Shown here in pieces: positions 74 through 29,283 of a DNA stretch of 30,342 bases (position 1 is its first letter; each line of letters begins with the position of its first letter). The notes under the pieces were generated by a model. The model made no database searches, was not told the DNA's origin, and saw only the letters and a list, made by a program, of their open reading frames with translations. Origin of the DNA: a virus; IMG/VR virus record IMGVR_UViG_3300046028_004516, positions 1 through 30,342 of that record. The stretch is one strand, 5' to 3'. A program made the position numbers and the translations under genes.

Positions 74-547
74 ATGAAAGGTAGAAAAAAAACACCGACG
101 GCGATACTAAAAATGCGAGGGTCGTGGCGTGCGAAGACGCGCCCAGGCGAACCCGCTCCGAGCGCATCGCAACTCGACTCGCCTGAGTTTCTTGGGGCCC
201 GTGAAAAGATTATCTTCGACCAGATGAGCGAGGCGTTGTTCCGCGTTGGCGTCCTCACCGAGATCGATGGCTCGAGTCTTTCCCGCTATGCGATCTGCCT
301 CGTCCGATGGATTGACGCAGAAGCTTCTTTGAGCGCTGGAACTCCCACGCATATCGAGATCATGGGTGATGACGAACGAGTCAAGGGTTACAAGGAAACC
401 CCGCCTTACATGGTCTCATGCAAAATGCACGATCAACTCTTGAAGTTGGAGTGCCAGTTCGGATTGACGCCCGCATCGCGTCCTAATCTCCAAAGCACGA
501 ACGGCGGCAAAGACGGGATCATCGACATCATGAGGGCTATACAATAA
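74..547 (+). CDS. terS: Phage terminase small subunit (P27 family)
   Basis: Probable DNA-recognition subunit of the packaging motor; it would bind the packaging site and hand DNA to the large terminase. The 157-residue protein opens with GRKKTPTAILKMRGSW, the basic N-terminus typical of P27-type small terminases, followed by the usual Pro-rich RPGEPAP segment and a helical middle around residues 35-130. The length is normal for the family. The start at 74 has GGAG at 63-66. It lies directly before the large terminase, portal and protease, the canonical order. Its stop TAA (545-547) overlaps the proposed AUA start of the next gene at 544. Family call from sequence pattern; fairly sure. Confidence 0.88.
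   Translation: MKGRKKTPTAILKMRGSWRAKTRPGEPAPSASQLDSPEFLGAREKIIFDQMSEALFRVGVLTEIDGSSLSRYAICLVRWIDAEASLSAGTPTHIEIMGDDERVKGYKETPPYMVSCKMHDQLLKLECQFGLTPASRPNLQSTNGGKDGIIDIMRAIQ
532..546 (+). promoter_or_regulatory. Shine-Dalgarno and proposed AUA initiation codon of the large terminase
   Basis: GAGGG at 532-536 is followed after 7 nt by ATA at 544-546, which overlaps the upstream TAA stop (ATAA). This is the geometry of a translationally coupled ATGA start with the third base changed. No standard start is available in this frame until TTG 622, inside the conserved N-terminus. Confidence 0.55.
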
Positions 548-2121
548 CCACCCGAGCGCCAAGGAAAAAGAAGCCTGCACCCGCCAAGGATCACCCGATC
601 GTTCGGTTCTTTGGTGACCACTTGCGCCATACGAAGGGCGAGTGGGCGGGCACGGGTTTCGTCCTGGCTGAATGGCAGCGTCAGTTCTTGAATGAACTCT
701 TCGGGACGGTGCGCAAGGATGGCCTGCGCCAGTACCGCACCGCCTACCTCGAGGTGCCCAGAAAGAACGGTAAGTCAACTCTCGCAGCGGGCATCGCCTT
801 GTTTCTTCTCTGCCTTGATCGTGAAGAGGGTGCGGAAATCTACAGCGCAGCATCCGACAAAGATCAAGCCAGTATCGTCTTTGACCAAGCCTGCCAGATG
901 ATCGAGGAAAACCCGAACCTCTCAACCATGCTCAGGATCTATCGCAACAAAACGATCGAGCACAAAGCCTCGAACTCTTTCTACAGATCGCTATCCTCGG
1001 ATGCCTTCACCAAACACGGGCTCAATGCTCATGGCGTGATCGTCGACGAGGTTCATGCCCAACCAAACCGAGAGCTATGGGATGTGTTGACAACCTCAAC
1101 GGGTGCCCGCAGGCAACCGCTCACGCTCGCATTGACTACCGCTGGGCACGATCGCCAGAGTCTGTGCTGGGAGCTTCGCCAGTATGCTGAAGGGGTCAAC
1201 GATAAGCTCATTCACGACCCGACTTTCTACTCTAAAATCTACACCAGCACAGGCGACTGGAAAGCAGAATCAACTTGGAAACAAGCCAACCCGAACTATG
1301 GCGTGACCGTGAAAGAGGATTACTTCGTGAAGGCAGTAGCTGAAGCCAGCGCCAACCCTTCCCGCGAAAACGCCTTCAGAAGATTACACTTGAACCAGTG
1401 GACATCGCAGGAGACGAGATGGATCTCGCTCGAGCGCTGGGATGCGTGCTCCCGCGATCTCCCTGACCTTTCCGGGAGGATGGCGTTCGGGGGTCTTGAT
1501 CTCAGCAGTACCTTAGATCTCACGGCGTTTGTGCTTCTCTTTCCGCCTATCGAACCGCATGAACCCTACTGGATCGTGCCGACCTTCTTCGCACCAGCGG
1601 ACGCAGCGAGGGAACGAGAGCGCAACAACAAGCACAGGCTCGATGACTGGGAGCGCCAAGGTCTGATCGTGACTACACCAGGGCGATCGCTCGACTATAG
1701 GGCAGTCGTGGCGGTGATTGATGGCCTAGCAAGAAAGTACAACATCCAAGAGATCGCAGTCGATCGCTGGAACATCAACCAGATCAGTAAGGATTTGGAA
1801 ACGCTGGGCAAGAATAACGGCAGGCCCGATTGGCTTGTCGGCTTCGGGCAAGGCTTCGCAGCGATGACCGCACCCTCGAAAGAGTTAGAGGTCTTGGTGC
1901 TCTCTGAGAAGATCGCACACGATGGCAACCCGGTGCTGCGTTGGATGTTTTCCAATGTCCAAGTCGAGCGAGACAACGCAGGCAACATCAAAATGCATAA
2001 GGGAAAAGCGGTCGAGAAAATCGATGGCATCGTGGCGACTATCATGGCACTCGGTCGGGCGCAGGTCAGCACCTTAAACGCAACAAATATTTACGACACC
2101 CAAGGAATCACACTACTATGA
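544..2121 (+). CDS. terL: Phage terminase large subunit, proposed AUA start
   Basis: ATPase-nuclease that drives DNA into the prohead and cuts it. With the start at ATA 544 it has 525 residues. Walker A is PRKNGKST (about 72-79), Walker B is VIVDEVH (about 165-171), and the C-terminal nuclease has Asp residues in GGLDLSS, VDRWN and KIDGIVA. The only standard start nearby is TTG 622, which removes 26 residues including the usual IVRFFGDHLRHTKGEWAG stretch and has no Shine-Dalgarno. Reading back in frame there is no ATG, GTG or other TTG; ATA 544 yields ITTRAPRKKKPAP, sits 7 nt after GAGGG (532-536) and overlaps the terS stop as ATAA. Function is near certain; the start is inferred. Confidence 0.93.
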   Translation: MTTRAPRKKKPAPAKDHPIVRFFGDHLRHTKGEWAGTGFVLAEWQRQFLNELFGTVRKDGLRQYRTAYLEVPRKNGKSTLAAGIALFLLCLDREEGAEIYSAASDKDQASIVFDQACQMIEENPNLSTMLRIYRNKTIEHKASNSFYRSLSSDAFTKHGLNAHGVIVDEVHAQPNRELWDVLTTSTGARRQPLTLALTTAGHDRQSLCWELRQYAEGVNDKLIHDPTFYSKIYTSTGDWKAESTWKQANPNYGVTVKEDYFVKAVAEASANPSRENAFRRLHLNQWTSQETRWISLERWDACSRDLPDLSGRMAFGGLDLSSTLDLTAFVLLFPPIEPHEPYWIVPTFFAPADAARERERNNKHRLDDWERQGLIVTTPGRSLDYRAVVAVIDGLARKYNIQEIAVDRWNINQISKDLETLGKNNGRPDWLVGFGQGFAAMTAPSKELEVLVLSEKIAHDGNPVLRWMFSNVQVERDNAGNIKMHKGKAVEKIDGIVATIMALGRAQVSTLNATNIYDTQGITLL

Positions 2122-4601: not shown

Positions 4602-4758
4602 CAAAAACCCTAGGAAAATTGACTTTCTGGAAGCTTTCTAACCAACCATATCGTGATTATCCATAATAAAGTGCGTGCTCCCACGAACAATAGGCTACGA
4701 TAGCAATACGGCGACCGGCGTTTGCCCGGTTGAATGGATCGAAAAAAGGAGCAGAAAC

Positions 4759-5064
4759 ATGGATAGTAAGACAAAGATCAACCTTTTGGTTGCAGCGGTG
4801 GCGTGCCTGACAGTCAGCTTGATCGTGTCGTGTGTGGTCGTGGTGGTGTTAGTGAAGGGTGGTAACCAACAAATGACCCAAGAGTCGGCAGCGCAGAGCG
4901 TGACAGATATGGCGGCGGCGATGAAGAAGAATGCCATCGAGGCCGAGGAGCGGGAAGCGGTTCGCAGAGAGAGCGAGAGAGTTGCGGAAAGAGAACGAGT
5001 AAGGATTCAGACTTCCCGAGATAAAACTGACGCAATGTTCAGAGATGCTTATAAGGGTCGTTAA
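4759..5064 (+). CDS. Small single-pass membrane protein with charged helical tail
   Basis: Unrecognised protein of 101 residues. The start at 4759 is preferred over the upstream in-frame ATG 4675 because AAAGGAG lies just before it. Residues 1-8 are polar (MDSKTKIN), residues 9-34 form a strong hydrophobic helix (LLVAAVACLTVSLIVSC...VVVVLV), and from about residue 50 on it is a highly charged E/R-rich stretch (EAEEREAVRRESERVAERER) likely to be a coiled coil. The topology resembles an inner-membrane spanin or a small phage membrane effector, but the position between protease and capsid is unusual for a lysis gene. It has its own RBS and is followed by a strong terminator, so it may be a separately expressed insertion (moron-like). 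Function unknown. Confidence 0.65.
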   Translation: MDSKTKINLLVAAVACLTVSLIVSCVVVVVLVKGGNQQMTQESAAQSVTDMAAAMKKNAIEAEEREAVRRESERVAERERVRIQTSRDKTDAMFRDAYKGR

Positions 5065-5086
5065 CCCTTCCCCCCCGCTCTCCCTA

Positions 5087-5116
5087 GGCTCGCCTTTACC
5101 GGCGGGCCTTTTTTTT
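5087..5116 (+). terminator. Intrinsic terminator after the small membrane protein gene
   Basis: GGCTCGCC (5087-5094) pairs with GGCGGGCC (5101-5108), eight pairs with one U-G wobble, across a 6-nt loop. It is followed by eight T residues (5109-5116). Confidence 0.88.
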
Positions 5117-5126
5117 GGCACGATGG

Positions 5127-5154
5127 TTGACGAACTAGGAATCCGTGGTTTAAT
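5127..5154 (+). promoter_or_regulatory. Sigma70-like promoter between two terminators
   Basis: TTGACG (5127-5132) and TTTAAT (5149-5154), each one mismatch from consensus, are separated by 16 bp. It lies directly after one intrinsic terminator and about 60 bp before the next, so transcripts would start near 5161. Motif-based call only. Confidence 0.5.
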
Positions 5155-5160
5155 CGGTCT

Positions 5161-5220
5161 ATCGAAATCAGTGCAGTCTTTACGCACAGTTTCCCGAACT
5201 AGGGGCCTGTGCGTTTTTTT
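5161..5220 (+). ncRNA. Possible short RNA or attenuated leader upstream of the capsid gene
   Basis: A transcript from the promoter at 5127-5154 would end at the terminator at 5182-5220, giving an RNA of about 60 nt with no ORF. It may be a free small RNA, or the leader of the major capsid gene with read-through controlled at the terminator. Inference from site order only. Confidence 0.3.
5182..5220 (+). terminator. Intrinsic terminator 60 bp upstream of the capsid gene
   Basis: ACGCACAG (5182-5189) pairs perfectly with CTGTGCGT (5207-5214), with inner CCC/GGG pairing possible in the loop. A T-run continues to 5220. Its position between promoter and capsid start suggests either isolation of the capsid gene or an attenuator. 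Confidence 0.85.
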
Positions 5221-5278
5221 ATGCTTCTCACCGGAGCAGATGCACGAGTCCTAATAAGCCATATTAGGAAGAAATCCA

Positions 5279-8770: not shown

Positions 8771-9178
8771 ATGGCAGCAGTACTGACCCAAGGCACGGCA
8801 ATCTCGATCGGCGGCACCACCCTCACCGGCGTGACCGATATCACACCACCCAGTGCGACCCGTGGCACCGTGGACATCACCAACCTTTTGAGCCCAGACC
8901 ATGCGAAGGAATACGCTGGCGGTCTGATCGATGGTGGCGAAATGTCAGCAACCGCAATCGTGGGCGTTGGCTCCGCAGCACTCGGCACGATCAGCGCTTA
9001 CATCGAAGATTACGGCGAAGCTAAAGCTTGCGTGATAACCCTCGCCGATACCTCGACTATTTCTTTCGATGGCATCGTGACGAAGTTTCAAGTCGATGGC
9101 GTTGCAACGGGCGACAACACGGTGAAAGCAACCGTGGGCGTTAAACCAGTAGGCAAAATAACCTACGCATTAGATTAA
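8771..9178 (+). CDS. Major tail tube protein
   Basis: Likely polymerises into the tail tube. The 135-residue beta-rich protein has ISIGGTTLTGVTDITPPSAT at the start, TRGTVDITNLLSPDHAKEYAGG, a GGEMSATAIVG turn and a C-terminal ISFDGIVTKFQVDGVATGDN...TVGVKPVGKI stretch. This is a familiar arrangement in short siphovirus tube proteins. AGGGAG lies upstream of ATG 8771. It precedes the chaperone pair and tape measure, the canonical position. Confidence 0.87.
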   Translation: MAAVLTQGTAISIGGTTLTGVTDITPPSATRGTVDITNLLSPDHAKEYAGGLIDGGEMSATAIVGVGSAALGTISAYIEDYGEAKACVITLADTSTISFDGIVTKFQVDGVATGDNTVKATVGVKPVGKITYALD

Positions 9179-9191
9179 GGAGTTTCTCATT
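9179..9191 (+). promoter_or_regulatory. Shine-Dalgarno and proposed AUU initiation codon of the tail chaperone
   Basis: GGAG at 9179-9182 is followed after 6 nt by ATT at 9189-9191. The arrangement AAGGAG-TTTCTCAT closely matches the csrA start in this window (AAGGAGGTTTCTCATG before 25940). No ATG, GTG or TTG exists in this frame between the preceding gene's stop and GTG 9270. Confidence 0.6.
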
Positions 9192-9536
9192 TTAGATAAG
9201 CAAAAGTTATTAAGTGCAGGCAGTGCATACAAGCTCGGGGAGATCGAGATCCCCGAGCTCGGTGGCAAAGTGTTCCTCCGAGTGATTAGCTCCCGTGAGC
9301 GTGATCAACTTGAAAGCGAAATCAGTGCGGGCTCAAAGTCAGGTAACCTGACGAACATTCGAGCCAAGCTGGTGGTGAGGTCTATCGCTGATGATCAAGG
9401 CAAGCGAATCTTTACCGATGCCGAGGTCGAAGCTGTGGGCGAGATGCCTGCGCCTCTTGTTGGCATCCTCTTCGATGCGTGTGCCCGTCATAACGGCATG
9501 AGTGGCGGTGCAGTCGAGGAAGCAAGAAAAAACTAA
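9189..9536 (+). CDS. Tail assembly chaperone (lambda gpG-like), proposed AUU start
   Basis: Probable chaperone that coats the tape measure during tail assembly. GTG 9270 gives 88 residues but cuts the family's opening strand region; the in-frame sequence upstream encodes ILDKQKLLSAGSAYKLGEIE and then IPELGGKVFLRVISSRERDQ, the usual chaperone N-terminus. The likely start is ATT 9189, 6 nt after GGAG, giving 115 residues. The 0-frame ends at TAA 9534-9536, immediately after the slippery heptamer AAAAAAC. It lies between tail tube and tape measure genes. Gene identity rests on position, fold pattern and frameshift; the start is inferred. Confidence 0.85.
   Translation: MLDKQKLLSAGSAYKLGEIEIPELGGKVFLRVISSRERDQLESEISAGSKSGNLTNIRAKLVVRSIADDQGKRIFTDAEVEAVGEMPAPLVGILFDACARHNGMSGGAVEEARKN
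9527..9533 (+). promoter_or_regulatory. Programmed -1 ribosomal frameshift site
   Basis: The heptamer A AAA AAC is in the correct phase (0-frame ...AGA AAA AAC TAA) and directly abuts the stop. A slip of -1 continues with CTA ATC GAG and stays open to 9856. A Shine-Dalgarno-like GAGGA at 9516-9520 lies 6 nt upstream, as in dnaX-type stimulation. A weak 6-bp stem (9551-9556 with 9565-9570) follows, rather far away. Confidence 0.88.
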
Positions 9537-9856
9537 TCGAGCGTCCGGGGAGGCGGTTTCTATTCCGTCTTGCTGGGCACTTGAAGAAGACCGTCGGTGA
9601 ACTCCTAGATGGCATGGACGCCCAGGAGTTGACCGAGTGGATGGCTTTCTCAACGATCGAGCCACTTGACGCAGACCGTGCCGACATTCATGCAGCGCAG
9701 GTGTGCAGCACAACAGCGAATGTGTGGCGGGGTGCAGAGTCGAAGGTGCTCGAGGTAAAGGATTTTATCCCGGACTGGTACGGTGAAAACAAGAAGGTTG
9801 ACAACTTCGCAGGGCTCAAGGCGTGGGCGACAGCGATGGGCACTAAGAAAACCTAG
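9533..9856 (+). CDS. Frameshift extension of the tail assembly chaperone (gpT-like part)
   Basis: The -1 frame is open from the heptamer to TAG 9854-9856 and encodes 107 residues, beginning LIERPGRRFLFRLAGHLKKT followed by VGELLDGMDAQELTEWMAF. That GELL/ELTEW pattern is the usual second domain of siphovirus chaperones (lambda gpGT style). A fusion of 115 + 107 residues (222) is predicted. An internal TTG at 9581 has no Shine-Dalgarno and would remove the RPGRRFLFRLAGH part, so independent translation is unlikely. It ends just before the tape measure start. Confidence 0.87.
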   Translation, partial: LIERPGRRFLFRLAGHLKKTVGELLDGMDAQELTEWMAFSTIEPLDADRADIHAAQVCSTTANVWRGAESKVLEVKDFIPDWYGENKKVDNFAGLKAWATAMGTKKT

Positions 9857-9862
9857 GAGTCG

Positions 9863-12571
9863 ATGATGGCAAAAACTATCGGATCATTGAATGTTTCGAT
9901 GGGCCTGTCGATCACCGACTTCATCACCAATCTCGACAAAGTCAAAGAGGACATGGGAAGTCTTGAGGCAGTGACCTCAGAGGCCTCCAAGCATTTCGAT
10001 GATGATGTCGCCGGGGTCATGGGCGACGCCTTGCACAAGTTCGCCAAGACTTCAAAGCTCGGAGCAGATGATGCTCTCGCCTTTGCGGTCTCGCTCAAGA
10101 AGCTCGGCCTCGATGCGGACACGATTACCAGCACCCTGGACAAGTTCGGTAAAGGTATAGGTAAGTTTGCCAAGAACGCAGGCGAAGCGAGCAAGGCTTT
10201 CGCTGGCATCCTCGGAAAGATCGGCGAGTCGGATAAGGTCTTACTCAAAGATATACAAGCGCTGGAAAGCATGGGCGTGAAAGCGTTCGATGCGATGGCC
10301 AAGGAACTTTCCAAGGTTGAAGGTAAAGCAGTAACAACCGCAGAAGTCATGAAGCGGATCGCCTCGGGTGCGATCTCAGGCAAGGATGCTTTGAAACTTC
10401 TCACGCAAGGCGGGCAAGCTCCAGTGGGTGGTGGCGATGCCGCCAAGGAATCGCAAGCGAAGAGCAAGCTCGCATCGTTCCTCACCCATGTCGAAACCAA
10501 AATCAAGTCCGCTGCCTCATCTATTTTTAAAAGCGTAACCAACCTCATCATGAACCCGGTCACCGCGATCGGGGGCGCTCTCGCCTCTTATGGTGTGTAC
10601 AAAATCTACGACCGAGCGGTGATGGCTTTTGCCAACACCGAAGAGATCCTGACCCGAATCAAAGGGCTCGCTGGCGAAGCCAATGCCGAGCGTCTTGGTG
10701 GCGTGATGGGCGAGATCGCTGATCAGGGGCGCATCGCTCAAGATGCAGTCGGCAAGCTAGCTACCGGGTTCCTCGGCCTCGGGGTCTCGGGTAAAGATGC
10801 TGCCACGATGATTGAAAGCTTCGGGCGCACTAGTTTGGTTGCTGGTTCGGGTGCCACGGATGTCTTTAACAAATTAGGGGAAGTCGCTCAGAACATGACC
10901 CGCACGGGTCAAGCTTCCAAGGATGATTTCGCAGCGCTCGCAGCGATGGGCCTGCCTGTTTACCAAGCTTTGGCTGATCGATTAAATCTGGTAAACAACA
11001 CAGCGATCAGCGCTAATGATGCCATGCGTTTGCTTGCTGAAAACAAAGTCGGAACTGGGAGCGCACTCAACGCACTTGCTGGGATGAGTAACAATGCAGA
11101 TGTGATCAAGCAGGCAGAAGAACAGGCTGGAACACTTAAAGGAATTTATGCTCGACTTTCAGGAGAGGTGCAAGGGTTCTTTACTGAGTTCGGTGCCGAC
11201 ATTGTAGACGCTTTGGATCTCAAAGGTTTTTCAAAAAGCCTCATTGGGTTTATGCAAAGTCTCAGAGCGAACTTTGATTCACTAACCCCAGCGATCAAAA
11301 ATATCGGTATGGTGCTCGCCGTGGTTCGAGATGTGTTATTCGATGCGTTCAAGGGTTTGGTGAGTTTCTTCACCACGATGGGCGGGGCCGATGTGGCGGT
11401 GGGGAGTATCGACAACATTAGGGCTGTGGTTGTTTCCTTTGCACAGGGCGTAATGGTAGCAATGCAGTCGGTGATGAGTGGGGCAATCACAGTCATCAAT
11501 GAGATCGTAGCTGCCGTGGGCGGGCTCAAGAAGTTTGCAGCCATCTTTGCAGGTGTGGTAGCAGGCGCCAAGGTTGGAACGCTCGCTGGTTCGTTTGGTG
11601 GCGTTACTGCTCTTCCCGCTGCGATCATTGGTGGTGTTGCGGGTGGCCTTTACGCTAATAGCAAGGTAAGTGGTGGTGGCCCTCAGATCGATGCAGAAGC
11701 GATCAAAACAAAAATGAATGCCTCCTTTGATGAAATAACGAGACGCATCGGGGGAAGCGGTGGCGAAGCCGGTAATCAGTTCTTAATGGAACTAGAGAAC
11801 ACGATCGTTGAAAGGTCGAAGGGCTTCGCAGATAAGGCCAACCCGTTCCGAAGGTTTTCACTCGCTGGCGTTGACACGCAGATCGACTCATTCTTCTCAT
11901 CGCTAACCGCCGCTAATGTAGGGCACACCACTTTCTTGAACACCTTGCAAGGTGGCGTAGGCTCGACAATCGCTATCCTTCGGCGCGAAATGGAACTTGG
12001 AAACCTTACTGCCGAAGAGTTTGCAGCCCAAATGACAAAGCTTTCCGAAGGTGCGATGGCATCGCTGGACGCCAAGCTTAAAGCTGGCATCATCACGAAC
12101 ACGGAATACTCAAACGCTATTGCGCTAATCTTCGAGAAGATCGACGCCCTCGATGTCTCAGGCCTTAACGCATTCATGGGTGGTGATCAAATGCCTGCAT
12201 GGATCAGGGAGCTTTCCAACATTGAAAGCCCGCTCGAAACCTACCGCAGAAAAATGGAAGAGTTACAGATGACCCTTGCGGATCGGCCTGATCTTTTTGC
12301 AGCGGGTGCAGCGCAACTTGCTGACGAACTAGAACGCAGCGTGGGAGCGATGGAAGAATTGAAAAACCCTGCCGCACTCATCAAGGGCACGGCAGGCGCA
12401 TTCTCGCAAGTGCTCAAGATCCAAAACGCAAAGGGAGGCGAGAGCGCAGCGGATCGATTGTTAAGGCTACAACAACGGGCAGAAGAAAAAGACACCGCAA
12501 GAAATAACTACTTGGCAGCGATCGCAGCAGCGACAGCAAACAACAATGCAATGAACATCGTTCAAGTGTAA
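9863..12571 (+). CDS. Tail tape measure protein
   Basis: Sets tail length and is ejected with DNA. It has 902 residues, the longest ORF, placed directly after the chaperone pair. The N-terminal 200 residues are helical and Lys/Asp-rich. The tape-measure domain lies around 225-420, with the typical MGEIADQGRIAQDAVGKLA, SFGRTSLVAGSGATDVFNKL and DDFAALAAMGLPVYQALAD. Hydrophobic Gly/Ala-rich segments follow (about 485-500, 540-550 and 558-597), likely membrane-active during ejection. The C-terminal 250 residues are predicted helix with many charged residues. The start is ATG 9863 (or 9866) after AGGAG. By the usual 1.5 angstrom per residue rule this predicts a tail of roughly 130-135 nm. Confidence 0.92.
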   Translation: MMAKTIGSLNVSMGLSITDFITNLDKVKEDMGSLEAVTSEASKHFDDDVAGVMGDALHKFAKTSKLGADDALAFAVSLKKLGLDADTITSTLDKFGKGIGKFAKNAGEASKAFAGILGKIGESDKVLLKDIQALESMGVKAFDAMAKELSKVEGKAVTTAEVMKRIASGAISGKDALKLLTQGGQAPVGGGDAAKESQAKSKLASFLTHVETKIKSAASSIFKSVTNLIMNPVTAIGGALASYGVYKIYDRAVMAFANTEEILTRIKGLAGEANAERLGGVMGEIADQGRIAQDAVGKLATGFLGLGVSGKDAATMIESFGRTSLVAGSGATDVFNKLGEVAQNMTRTGQASKDDFAALAAMGLPVYQALADRLNLVNNTAISANDAMRLLAENKVGTGSALNALAGMSNNADVIKQAEEQAGTLKGIYARLSGEVQGFFTEFGADIVDALDLKGFSKSLIGFMQSLRANFDSLTPAIKNIGMVLAVVRDVLFDAFKGLVSFFTTMGGADVAVGSIDNIRAVVVSFAQGVMVAMQSVMSGAITVINEIVAAVGGLKKFAAIFAGVVAGAKVGTLAGSFGGVTALPAAIIGGVAGGLYANSKVSGGGPQIDAEAIKTKMNASFDEITRRIGGSGGEAGNQFLMELENTIVERSKGFADKANPFRRFSLAGVDTQIDSFFSSLTAANVGHTTFLNTLQGGVGSTIAILRREMELGNLTAEEFAAQMTKLSEGAMASLDAKLKAGIITNTEYSNAIALIFEKIDALDVSGLNAFMGGDQMPAWIRELSNIESPLETYRRKMEELQMTLADRPDLFAAGAAQLADELERSVGAMEELKNPAALIKGTAGAFSQVLKIQNAKGGESAADRLLRLQQRAEEKDTARNNYLAAIAAATANNNAMNIVQV

Positions 12572-23277: not shown

Positions 23278-23296
23278 GTACACCTTCTGCTATGAT
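23260..23296 (+). promoter_or_regulatory. Integrase promoter/operator region with dyad
   Basis: A perfect 7-bp dyad GTTGTAC-T-GTACAAC (23260-23274) precedes a -10-like TATGAT (23291-23296). The -35 position falls within the dyad (TGTACA at 18-bp spacing). A third half-site-like ATTGTAC follows at 23275-23281. A protein bound to the dyad would block the promoter, which suggests autoregulation by the integrase or by a repressor. Confidence 0.5.
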
Positions 23297-23345
23297 TCTC
23301 CGCATGGAGGCCCGCTTTTGGGCTTCTTCCGTGCGAGTTCAAATC

Positions 23346-24560
23346 ATGGCAAAGAAAAAAGTACCCGGTCTGCTACACCATAAGGGAAAAAACTTAGGGT
23401 ATAGCATCAGCCCCGCAACCCGTAAGGCCACTTACCACGGGCAGTGGGGCCTCGTAGCTACCAAGCAGGCCTACCTCCGCTGGTGTGCCGACCTTCTTAC
23501 TGAGGATGTCTCACCCTCGATCGTGCCTGAACACGAACCCGTTGTCGCTGATCTGGTAAACGCCATGATCAAGCACTCCATCTCCTACTACCGAGACCCG
23601 ACGACCGGGAAACCCACATCGCAGGTGGGTGTCATCAAGTCGGCACTGCGGGAGCTCGACCTTTATCTTGAAATGAAAATAAAAGATTTTAAGCCCTCGG
23701 TGCTGGTGGCGGTTCGTGCTGCCATTGTCAACCGAGACATCATTCCCCAGTCGGAAGGCGCACCGAAAAAGAAATTGTGTATCAGTAGTGTGAACAATGC
23801 CATCGTAAAGATTCGCCAGATGTTTAAGCTCGGTGTCGGATGGGAACTTGTCCCAGTCGAGATATACCAAGCGCTCGCCTGTGTCCAGCACCTTAACTGG
23901 CGAACCGCACCAACCTTAAGGAACCCTGACAGGATCGCCCCCGTGCCTGTTGAGTACTTCAGACTGATCATGCCCCATTTGAAACCAATGTACCGTGCAG
24001 TGCTCACCGTCCACCTCGCAACCGGGATGCGTGTCAAGGAGCTCTGCTCCATGCGTTGGTCGGAGATGACGGAGGTCGAACCCGGTCTCTGGTGCTACGC
24101 TCCAGCGGAACACAAGAACTCTCACCGGGGTGATCCGAGATTAATCTACATGAAGACCGATCTCATCGACCTCATGCGCTCCGTACGCAAACCGCTTTGG
24201 GATAAAGATGCTGTCTGGTGCCAGCGTGGCGTTGGCAAGAGTGCTGGCTACAGCGGCATGATCAGTGGTGATGGCTACGCCCGAGCCATTGAGGGTGCAC
24301 AAAAAAGATACAACGAGGGCAGGCTCGCAATCAACCAGGGCGCTCGTACCGATAAAAAGAAACTCGACACCACCTCTGCAAAGCGTGCCCCGATGGAACA
24401 CTGGACACCGTTACAAATCCGACACACCGTGGCAACGCAGGTGCGGCGCACTCACGGGCTCGAGGGAGCGCAAGCGGTACTCGGTCACAGCACCCTTGAC
24501 GCCACACAAATCTATGCGGAAAAGCGTGATGATCTCGCACGGTGCGTAGCCCGAGGGTAA
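23346..24560 (+). CDS. int: Tyrosine recombinase (phage integrase) with atypical catalytic His position
   Basis: Site-specific recombinase for integration and excision at attP. It has 404 residues from ATG 23346; the in-frame ATG 23292 overlaps the promoter -10 and is rejected. Residues 65-185 form the core-binding SAM-like region, and 197-404 the catalytic domain. Catalytic residues: Arg229 (ATGMRVKEL), Lys257 (EHKNSHRG), Arg359 (LQIRHTVAT), His381 (LGHS) and Tyr390 (ATQIYAEKR). The expected first His of the HxxR motif is Leu356. It lies next to the tRNA-Pro-derived core. Likely active, though the substitution may alter activity. Confidence 0.93.
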   Translation: MAKKKVPGLLHHKGKNLGYSISPATRKATYHGQWGLVATKQAYLRWCADLLTEDVSPSIVPEHEPVVADLVNAMIKHSISYYRDPTTGKPTSQVGVIKSALRELDLYLEMKIKDFKPSVLVAVRAAIVNRDIIPQSEGAPKKKLCISSVNNAIVKIRQMFKLGVGWELVPVEIYQALACVQHLNWRTAPTLRNPDRIAPVPVEYFRLIMPHLKPMYRAVLTVHLATGMRVKELCSMRWSEMTEVEPGLWCYAPAEHKNSHRGDPRLIYMKTDLIDLMRSVRKPLWDKDAVWCQRGVGKSAGYSGMISGDGYARAIEGAQKRYNEGRLAINQGARTDKKKLDTTSAKRAPMEHWTPLQIRHTVATQVRRTHGLEGAQAVLGHSTLDATQIYAEKRDDLARCVARG

Positions 24561-26885: not shown

Positions 26886-27250
26886 ACCTTCCCGAAACCA
26901 AACCACGGGTGACGATCATCTCGCAACTCTGCACTAGGCAGGGCAAGACGGACATCGGCAAGCCTTATGTGGTCTACCTCAGTGATGGCCGCTGGTGGCT
27001 ACAGCAAGAGCAATCACTCTGGCCCGATCGTGAGCTTACTTTCCTCGAGATGTGGACGCTACTCAAAGGCGAGAACCATTACAACCTGACGAGACAGGGC
27101 ACCGCCATGCGGATCGATAAGCGCTGGGAAACCCTCCACAGCAAGGCCGAGTTCGACAACATCGATCGCTGGGATGAGACCGGCAACCTCATGAAGGAAG
27201 TCAAAGAAACGCTTGAGCGACTCATGAAAGAACTGGAGCTCATGAAATGA
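26882..27250 (+). CDS. Hypothetical early protein
   Basis: A 122-residue protein with AAGGAG before ATG 26882. No recognised family. The first half is beta-rich (RVTIISQLCTRQGKTDIGKP, YVVYLSDGRWWLQQEQSLW) and the last 40 residues are a charged helix (LMKEVKETLERLMKELELMK). It overlaps the primase-helicase gene as ATGA at 27247. Confidence 0.65.
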   Translation: MNLPETKPRVTIISQLCTRQGKTDIGKPYVVYLSDGRWWLQQEQSLWPDRELTFLEMWTLLKGENHYNLTRQGTAMRIDKRWETLHSKAEFDNIDRWDETGNLMKEVKETLERLMKELELMK

Positions 27251-29283
27251 CCGCTAAAGAATGCGCCCTTAAATATCTGGCAATGGGCTTGAGTGTTATC
27301 GCGATCGCACCCAACGGAAGCAAAGGCCCGGCAACCGTGGTCGGGTCGTGGTTACCCTTCATGACGGGAGCAAGGGCAACCCCGCAGCAGGTCGATGCGT
27401 GGTGGCCAGAAGGAACTCGCAACGGCGTCGCGATCGTGGGCGGGATCTTGTCCAACGATCTTGCGGTCATCGACATCGAAACCGGCGACGCTTACGCACA
27501 GTACCGCCAAGACTGCCAGCAAGAAGGCTTGCTCTACGCTTTGGATAGTTGCCCGATCGTAGTCACCCCGAATGGCGGCAGGCACATCTACTGCTTTGGT
27601 GTTCAGCGTAAGAACCTCAAGCTAGCCAAGTCTACCGAGGGCAAGACGCTCATCGAGATCAAGGGGAGCAACGGCTATGTCCTGGCACCGGGCTCGACGG
27701 AGGAGTGCCACCCGACTGGGCTACTCTATAGGTGGGAAAACAATTCGCTCTTGGATCTACCTGCACCCGCTCTGCCCGTAGACTCGGACGACTTCGATCT
27801 GATGGTAACCGTGGCGGTGTTACAAAATGTAGGAAAGTTTCCAGAGAAGTTTACACTACCGATACAAGCGGGCGAAATCAGAGACAACCGCAAGCGCCCC
27901 GGCGATGACTACAACGAGCGAGCCGACTGGGCAACCATCTTGCATGGTGCTGGCTGGGAGATCTCCCGCATCGGTCAGGACAAAATCTATTGGCGCAGGG
28001 CTGGTAAAGACGATGGCATCTCAGGCACGACTGGACACTGCCGCACTGATGGCTCTGGCGATATGCTTTATGTGTTCTCATCGAACGCTGCACCCTTTCA
28101 AGAGGCGAAGGCCTACAGCAAGTTTGCTGCCTACACCTTGTTATCCCATGACGGTAACTTTACCGCAGCAACTCGGGCTCTTGCGAGTGCAGGGTTCGGC
28201 GAACCTGAAGTTGAACTTAACTTTCTGCATAAGGCGAAGGCTGAAGATGCACCGCTAAAGATCGAGCCCGACCCAGTGACCGGGCTTGAGTATGAGATCA
28301 TCGGAAAGATGAAACGGGATACGACGGAGCGGGTCTGGCACTGGTACGGCTTCGTCACTGGGGGTGGTGTGACTTTGTTCAGTGCCATCTGGAAGATCGG
28401 CAAAACAACACTACTAACGGGCCTATTGAAGTCATGGATTATCGGAGATTCTTTTCTAGGGCAGAAGGTTGATAAGTGTAAGGCCTTAGTTATATCGGAA
28501 GAGCACAGAGACTTTTGGATTGACCGACACGCAGAGACTGGCGTAGGCGATGAAGACCAGCACGGGGTCTGGTGCAAACCATTCACGGCACAGATGACCA
28601 TGAAGCAATGGTTCGAGTATGTCGCACAGCTTGCCTTCATTATGCAGCGTGACGGGTTCAGTGTTTTGATCATCGACACCATCTCAAAGATCTGGCCGGT
28701 GAAAGATGAAAACTCTGCGACCGAAGTGCAACAAGCAATTAACGCTCTCGACTTCATCACTAAGCCGGGGATGTCAGTCATCCTTGTTCACCATCATCGC
28801 AAGGGTGGCGGCGAGAACCACACCGCATCCCGAGGCTCGGGTGCATTGTCTTCAGCAGTGGATATCTGCATGGACTTCACCAGGGAAGAAGGCGGCTACG
28901 GTAACAAAAGCAAAACCAGAAGGCTGATCACGACCACGGGGCGTTGCGGTAGAGCGACCCCATACGAAGTGCTTATCGACTTTGTTGATGAGCAATTAGT
29001 AAGACTCGGTGACAAAGACCAAGTCGATACCACCGCACGAAAGAAGTCCATCATCGAAGTGCTGGACAAGGACACCTACTACACCTTGGAATACATACAG
29101 GAGGCAAGCGGACAAAGACAGGCATTTGTTAGGAAACACTTAGAAGCCCTAGTCAACGACGGCGAAGTCGAGATGATTGGAACAGGCGGTCGAGGTGATA
29201 AAAAACGCTGGCGCAAAGTAACTATTCAACAACCTACTCAAAATAACCTTGGAGATTTCAATGGCAGTGCTCAGAGTTTGTGA
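27247..29283 (+). CDS. Primase-polymerase / RecA-like helicase fusion
   Basis: Central phage replication protein of 678 residues. The N-terminal prim-pol domain (about 1-165, bifunctional DNA primase/polymerase type) has Asp76 and Glu78 in AVIDIETG, and His113 in GGRHIYCF. The C-terminal RecA-like ATPase (about 340-590) has a Walker A variant SAIWKIGKTT (about 379-388), Walker B VLIIDTIS (Asp477) and a SVILVHHHRKGGG motif III-like strand. A winged-helix-like end follows (about 600-660). It lies in the early operon after small regulators. It may initiate replication at the 11-bp repeats upstream. The end overlaps the next gene by 23 nt. Confidence 0.88.
   Translation: MTAKECALKYLAMGLSVIAIAPNGSKGPATVVGSWLPFMTGARATPQQVDAWWPEGTRNGVAIVGGILSNDLAVIDIETGDAYAQYRQDCQQEGLLYALDSCPIVVTPNGGRHIYCFGVQRKNLKLAKSTEGKTLIEIKGSNGYVLAPGSTEECHPTGLLYRWENNSLLDLPAPALPVDSDDFDLMVTVAVLQNVGKFPEKFTLPIQAGEIRDNRKRPGDDYNERADWATILHGAGWEISRIGQDKIYWRRAGKDDGISGTTGHCRTDGSGDMLYVFSSNAAPFQEAKAYSKFAAYTLLSHDGNFTAATRALASAGFGEPEVELNFLHKAKAEDAPLKIEPDPVTGLEYEIIGKMKRDTTERVWHWYGFVTGGGVTLFSAIWKIGKTTLLTGLLKSWIIGDSFLGQKVDKCKALVISEEHRDFWIDRHAETGVGDEDQHGVWCKPFTAQMTMKQWFEYVAQLAFIMQRDGFSVLIIDTISKIWPVKDENSATEVQQAINALDFITKPGMSVILVHHHRKGGGENHTASRGSGALSSAVDICMDFTREEGGYGNKSKTRRLITTTGRCGRATPYEVLIDFVDEQLVRLGDKDQVDTTARKKSIIEVLDKDTYYTLEYIQEASGQRQAFVRKHLEALVNDGEVEMIGTGGRGDKKRWRKVTIQQPTQNNLGDFNGSAQSL

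Follow-up and report, generated by a model that had tools for sequence, protein, structure and literature searches.

The question raised by this locus is where translation of a predicted tail assembly chaperone gene begins. The gene lies in a 30,342-base window, which is the whole stretch of DNA analysed and comes from an IMG/VR virus record. The earliest in-frame ATG, GTG or TTG in the window is GTG 9270 at codon 28. The original prediction placed the start upstream of it, at an ATT preceded by a Shine-Dalgarno (SD) sequence. AUU and AUA are weak starts in bacteria. Comparison with relatives makes it very likely that the chaperone initiates at AUU 9189. The best explanation taken whole is that the lambda G/GT-type chaperone gene of this clade is translated from AUU 9189, and we put its probability at about 0.88.

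Structural Module and Phage Family

The window carries a siphovirus structural module (Table 1). The tail-tube gene lies directly upstream of the chaperone pair and a 902-aa ORF (9863–12571) lies downstream of it in the tape-measure position. This ORF had no family match in PHROG and Pfam profile searches. The interval from the head maturation protease to the capsid gene (4675–5254) contains ORFs without clear starts which are present in some relatives only. One of these ORFs was without a family match. A tyrosine-type phage integrase (PF00589) was predicted at 23292–24560, so the phage may be temperate. A protein with Prim-Pol and AAA domains (PF09250, PF13481) is encoded at 27247–29283 and represents a replication gene of the primase-polymerase/helicase type.

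The phage family is uncultured and known from metagenomes alone. The nearest phage isolates are only 26–36% identical in the chaperone. Bacterial genomes searched with the integrase and chaperone queries contained no relative, and no prophage relative was found with the integrase. No tRNA was found in the window when host identification was attempted.

Table 1. Positions of the features discussed, numbered from the first base of the window.
Feature	Position	Strand	Remarks
Small and large terminase, portal, head maturation protease, HK97-type capsid protein, connectors			Structural module genes
Tail terminator, tail tube, chaperone G, T domain, long ORF in tape-measure position			Structural module genes (continued)
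GAGGG, likely SD of large terminase	532..536	+	7 nt before ATA; unchanged in 18 distinct ATA and 13 distinct GTG sequences
ATA (AUA), predicted initiation codon of large terminase	544..546	+	Overlaps small-terminase stop TAA 545–547 (CAATAA)
Terminase large subunit	544..2121	+	PHROG 9, 3.4e-156 from the extended N-terminus
Major tail (tube) protein	8771..9178	+	ATG start; stop TAA 9176–9178; PHROG 158, 1.1e-11; PF16461, 26.9 bits (cut-off 26.1)
SD AAGGAG (UAAGGAG with 9176)	9177..9182	+	Overlaps TAA stop of tail-tube gene; 31/31 distinct sequences
ATT (AUU), predicted initiation codon of tail assembly chaperone	9189..9191	+	62/62 relatives; ATG/GTG in sister clades; SD gap 6, 7 or 8
Tail assembly chaperone G	9189..9536	+	115 codons and stop; PHROG 344, 5e-23; pN/pS 0.08 in codons 2–27, 0.14 in codons 28–115
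Inverted repeat AGCTCGGGGA-8 nt-TCCCCGAGCT	9232..9259	+	Codons 15–24; perfect 10-bp; about 45 nt downstream of AUU
Slippery heptamer A AAA AAC	9527..9533	+	Directly before G stop; predicted −1 frameshift giving G-T fusion
T domain, −1 frame	9533..9856	+	Stop-to-stop 9494–9856; PF06223; PHROG 337

Start Site of the Chaperone Gene

Direct reading of the window agreed exactly with the layout first described. AAGGAG, the six bases TTTCTC and ATT follow one another at normal spacing and no canonical codon precedes GTG 9270 in frame. An upstream TAG (9171–9173) bounds the frame, which ends with TAA 9534–9536. The SD duplex energy with the anti-SD is −8.7 kcal/mol in the ATT clade.

The check that had been suggested was an alignment of relatives at 9189. 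An IMG/VR search with the chaperone protein gave 65 loci, of which 62 were close relatives, from about 55 IMG datasets. The 62 close relatives collapsed to 31 distinct gene sequences. All 62 carry ATT at this position, and ATT TTA is found in 31/31 distinct genes. One further locus readable at the start position was a distant homologue with 33% identity. One of the six search patterns contained the start residue and the loci were therefore re-fetched with the T domain and with the tail-tube protein. ATT was present in 58/58 and 30/30 of these loci, respectively, counting loci with a readable site.

The UAAGGAG SD is likewise unchanged in the 62 close relatives, while nearby silent sites and the length of the spacer vary. 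Among the 31 distinct sequences the spacer is TTTCTC, TTTCAC or ATTCAC (6 bases), ATTTCAC (7 bases) or TTCTAGTT (8 bases). Fixation of ATT and the SD amid this variation is more than chance. Conservation of the third base of ATT is by itself weak evidence, with 3/34 four-fold silent positions outside the hairpin described below also unvaried and 10/46 other silent third positions outside it unvaried as well.

The T-domain search also gave two sister clades with 64–69% identity in T. The gene begins ATG-ATY-GAC-AAA-GCA behind TAATAAGGA in one of them (L194, L195, L196 and L202) and GTG-ATW-GAW-AAA-GCA behind GAAAGAGG in the other (L197–L201). Both starts align codon for codon with ATT-TTA-GAC-AAA-GCG of the ATT clade. 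ATG and GTG at the ATT position are the most telling evidence for the proposed AUU start, direct evidence on which the original prediction could not draw, and favor ATT, as originally chosen, over GTG 9270.

The SD duplex energies of the two sister clades are −6.0 and −7.0 kcal/mol. The SD of the ATT clade is stronger, so part of any loss from the weak codon would be offset. A stronger SD compensating for a weak codon holds against the nearest sisters but fails against the distant ATG relatives, whose SDs are stronger still (−11.6 to −13.4 kcal/mol), and there is thus no clear pattern of compensation. Rooting of the chaperone tree is unreliable for the direction of codon change because the outgroup branch is very long.

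Two other candidates at the 5' end were rejected. An upstream TTG at −15 (CTT TTG ATT AAG) occurs in many relatives; the window has TAG in its place, and in the TTCTAGTT subgroup this TTG lies out of frame. A long-range fold hiding the SD and AUU can be drawn in the window, but L053/L055 and the sister clades differ from the window in the 3' side of the fold (AGCTCC), which is therefore not supported.

The Chaperone as Part of a G/GT Pair

The identification of the product as a tail assembly chaperone was upheld by a PHROG 344 match spanning residues 4–115 (E = 5e-23). Pfam Phage_TAC_14 scored 19.6 bits, slightly short of the 22.1 cut-off. The end of the gene, AGA AAA AAC TAA, is invariant in 31/31 distinct sequences and is kept in both sister clades and in the more distant L205–L212. 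A stem-loop was predicted downstream of the slip site (9527–9620). A AAA AAC and the predicted stem-loop are likely to form a −1 frameshift signal for a G-T fusion. The T domain is without a plausible start of its own and matched Phage_tail_T (PF06223) with 62.6 bits (cut-off 25.9).

Judged by its family match, its position between the tube gene and the putative tape-measure ORF and its −1 slip site leading by predicted frameshift to a T domain, the chaperone gene represents G in a G/GT pair of the lambda type. It shares with lambda the order tube-G-T-tape measure and a −1 slip site with which G closes. In contrast to lambda, the start codon here is AUU and the slip site is A AAA AAC.

Alternative Readings of the Start

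The protein could begin at GTG 9270, the earliest canonical start in the frame of the window, or at another canonical codon downstream, with the upstream frame untranslated. GTG 9270 is not conserved, as codon 28 is GTA or GTC in 23/31 distinct sequences, and the first ATG, GTG or TTG common to all sequences is the ATG at codon 86. Codons 2–27 have a pS of 0.41 and a pN of 0.03, giving a pN/pS of 0.078 in frame compared to 1.7 and 5.3 in the other frames, which argues that they are translated. Codons 28–115 have a pN/pS of 0.14. With the family profile reaching back to residue 4 and the sister clades starting at the position of ATT, a downstream start is very improbable. The chaperone could instead be an extension of the tail-tube protein, entered by frameshift or by stop readthrough at 9176 and without a start of its own. 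Only 10 nt separate the two genes, and a fusion of tail proteins is conceivable. Among the relatives, however, ATT follows the upstream stop by 10, 11 or 12 nt, and the shift required would differ between members. Since all three phases occur, such entry is ruled out. In-frame stops also occur, TAA in some relatives and TAG in others, and the SD is invariant and normally spaced. This reading is rated just as improbable as a downstream start. Comparison of the sequences thereby establishes where the start lies and that it is fixed in the clade, and rejects both GTG 9270 and frameshift entry.

That ATT arose through faulty sequencing or assembly, or through local mutation of ATG, is the least probable reading of all. 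A single-base change would turn ATG into ATT, and an error at base 9191 had been allowed for in the original prediction. The same base is found in 62 separately assembled contigs and 31 distinct genes, and ATT recurs in every readable locus fetched with the neighboring queries, which excludes a sequencing error.

A Probable Second Non-canonical Start

The large terminase, which formed no part of the original prediction, was noticed on comparing the window with the genomes of relatives. A canonical start is absent from its frame until TTG 622, which is where a caller restricted to canonical codons would place the start. Upstream of this TTG lie 25 conserved residues, in a stretch that begins ITTRAPRKKKPAPAKDHPIVRFFGDH. 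ATA is present in 18/18 distinct sequences of the subclade of the window, and GTG stands at the same codon in 13/13 distinct sister sequences. The sister GTG overlaps TGA (GAGTGA). The pN/pS of terminase codons 2–26 is 0.06 in frame and 1.8 and 5.9 out of frame. These comparisons point to a start of the large terminase at AUA 544–546. The chaperone AUU and the terminase AUA each lie at SD distance, are conserved and have no canonical alternative. ATT and ATA occur together in ten contigs, and ATT occurs with GTG in six. No third non-canonical start stood out in the window.

Comparison With Known Non-canonical Starts

AUU and AUA starts are already known as a kind; the surprise is that one phage has both. 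Gene 26 of phage T4, a tail/baseplate gene, reportedly has an internal AUU start. It differs from the case here in that the internal AUU gives a shorter product and is not the main start. Such codons have very rarely been documented as starts, and here they appear fixed in two morphogenesis genes across many environmental contigs. A survey of start-codon evolution found 1 switch to AUU among 61,358 ancestral AUG starts (PMC5622118). Standard gene finders misread both genes because these starts are so rare. Gene callers limited to ATG, GTG and TTG truncate both proteins or vary the placement of the start between relatives. A literature search in which few subscription papers were covered found neither a chaperone reported to start at AUU nor a large terminase reported to start at AUA.

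In Escherichia coli infC, which encodes IF3, and pcnB also have AUU with an SD and weak initiation is expected (cited in PMC5472188 and PMC13009471). They differ in being cellular genes, infC being autoregulated by its own product, whereas the gene here is a phage morphogenesis gene 10 nt behind another. Staphylococcus aureus has conserved AUU and AUA starts with an extended SD, three of which, in poor medium, reached about 10% of the expression obtained with AUG (PMC13009471). Those of cvfC1 (AUU) and of ccpN, citZ and infC (AUA) are likewise conserved with a strong SD and were mapped by Ribo-Ret (PMC13009471). They are chromosomal and experimentally shown, while the phage case here is comparative only.

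The nearest phage likeness is TerS (orf28) of Streptococcus thermophilus phage TP-J34, with a predicted AUU in AAGGAGGT-ggatgt-ATT in the late structural/packaging region, for which resequencing excluded a sequencing error (PMC3952083). It concerns a small terminase predicted in one phage group, in contrast to the chaperone and large terminase here with their canonical-start sister clades. In Streptomyces, the non-canonical GTC start of sigR keeps the protein scarce compared to its neighbor and is repressed by IF3 (PMC5472188). The codon is another one and SigR is a cellular regulator.

Possible Mechanism and Stoichiometry

The UAAGGAG SD would position the 30S subunit on AUU 9189, and initiation would presumably be with fMet, as in infC and pcnB. 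The chaperone SD overlaps the tail-tube stop and the terminase start overlaps a stop, so coupling may supply ribosomes to both. Ribosomes terminating on the tail-tube gene may in this way also feed the chaperone start. An AUAA junction without an SD gave no reinitiation in Escherichia coli (PMC9955659), so the GAGGG preceding the terminase would be important.

An AUU working at a fraction of AUG efficiency would hold G and GT well below the amount of tail-tube protein. The G:GT ratio would be left unchanged by AUU and set by the slip site. In lambda G and GT are required at 30:1 and both leave the finished tail (PMC5009743). The AUA would likewise keep the terminase low, and this fits the same logic because the terminase is also needed in few copies beside abundant structural proteins. 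Weak initiation and IF3 discrimination could plausibly lower chaperone output. The AUU/AUA pair offers a natural system for asking whether phages dose assembly factors by start-codon weakness.

A tentative proposal is that the use of a small set of AUN starts in the lineage (AUU in the chaperone, AUA in the large terminase) is a stoichiometry control under selection. This would limit the amounts of scarce assembly factors encoded in operons with abundant structural proteins and may be tied to host IF3 activity; the odds are somewhat against it. The odds are also against the reading that AUU is the true start and has no regulatory meaning, being a product of neutral or slightly deleterious drift which is tolerated since enough initiation comes from the strong SD and from coupling to the tail-tube gene. 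The overlap of the strong SD with the upstream stop is consistent with drift, as is the overlap of the terminase AUA with a stop, and in the wider family there are AUG relatives that do well with no AUU. Restoring ATG would take a single T to G change, however, and this was seen in 0/62 relatives despite many silent-site changes. Drift alone is disfavored because some relatives should have reverted. An infC-like response of chaperone output to the IF3 level of the host or to its growth state is unlikely, and any IF3-dependent regulation of the start is speculative. IF3 does repress AUU and other non-canonical starts in Escherichia coli and GTC in Streptomyces (PMC5472188), but the AUU start of Staphylococcus aureus cvfC1 showed no medium dependence (PMC13009471).

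Inverted Repeat Within the Chaperone Gene

The chaperone gene contains a perfect inverted repeat in codons 15–24. An Rfam search gave no match. No two-sided compensatory change in the repeat was seen when the sister clades were compared. Silent-site diversity among the 31 ATT-clade sequences is 0.054 in the repeat compared to about 0.36 elsewhere (permutation p = 1e-5). The repeat is likely to form an RNA hairpin. The sister clades retain most of the pairing, with G-U pairs. The putative hairpin is present with ATG and GTG starts as well and is therefore not specific to AUU.
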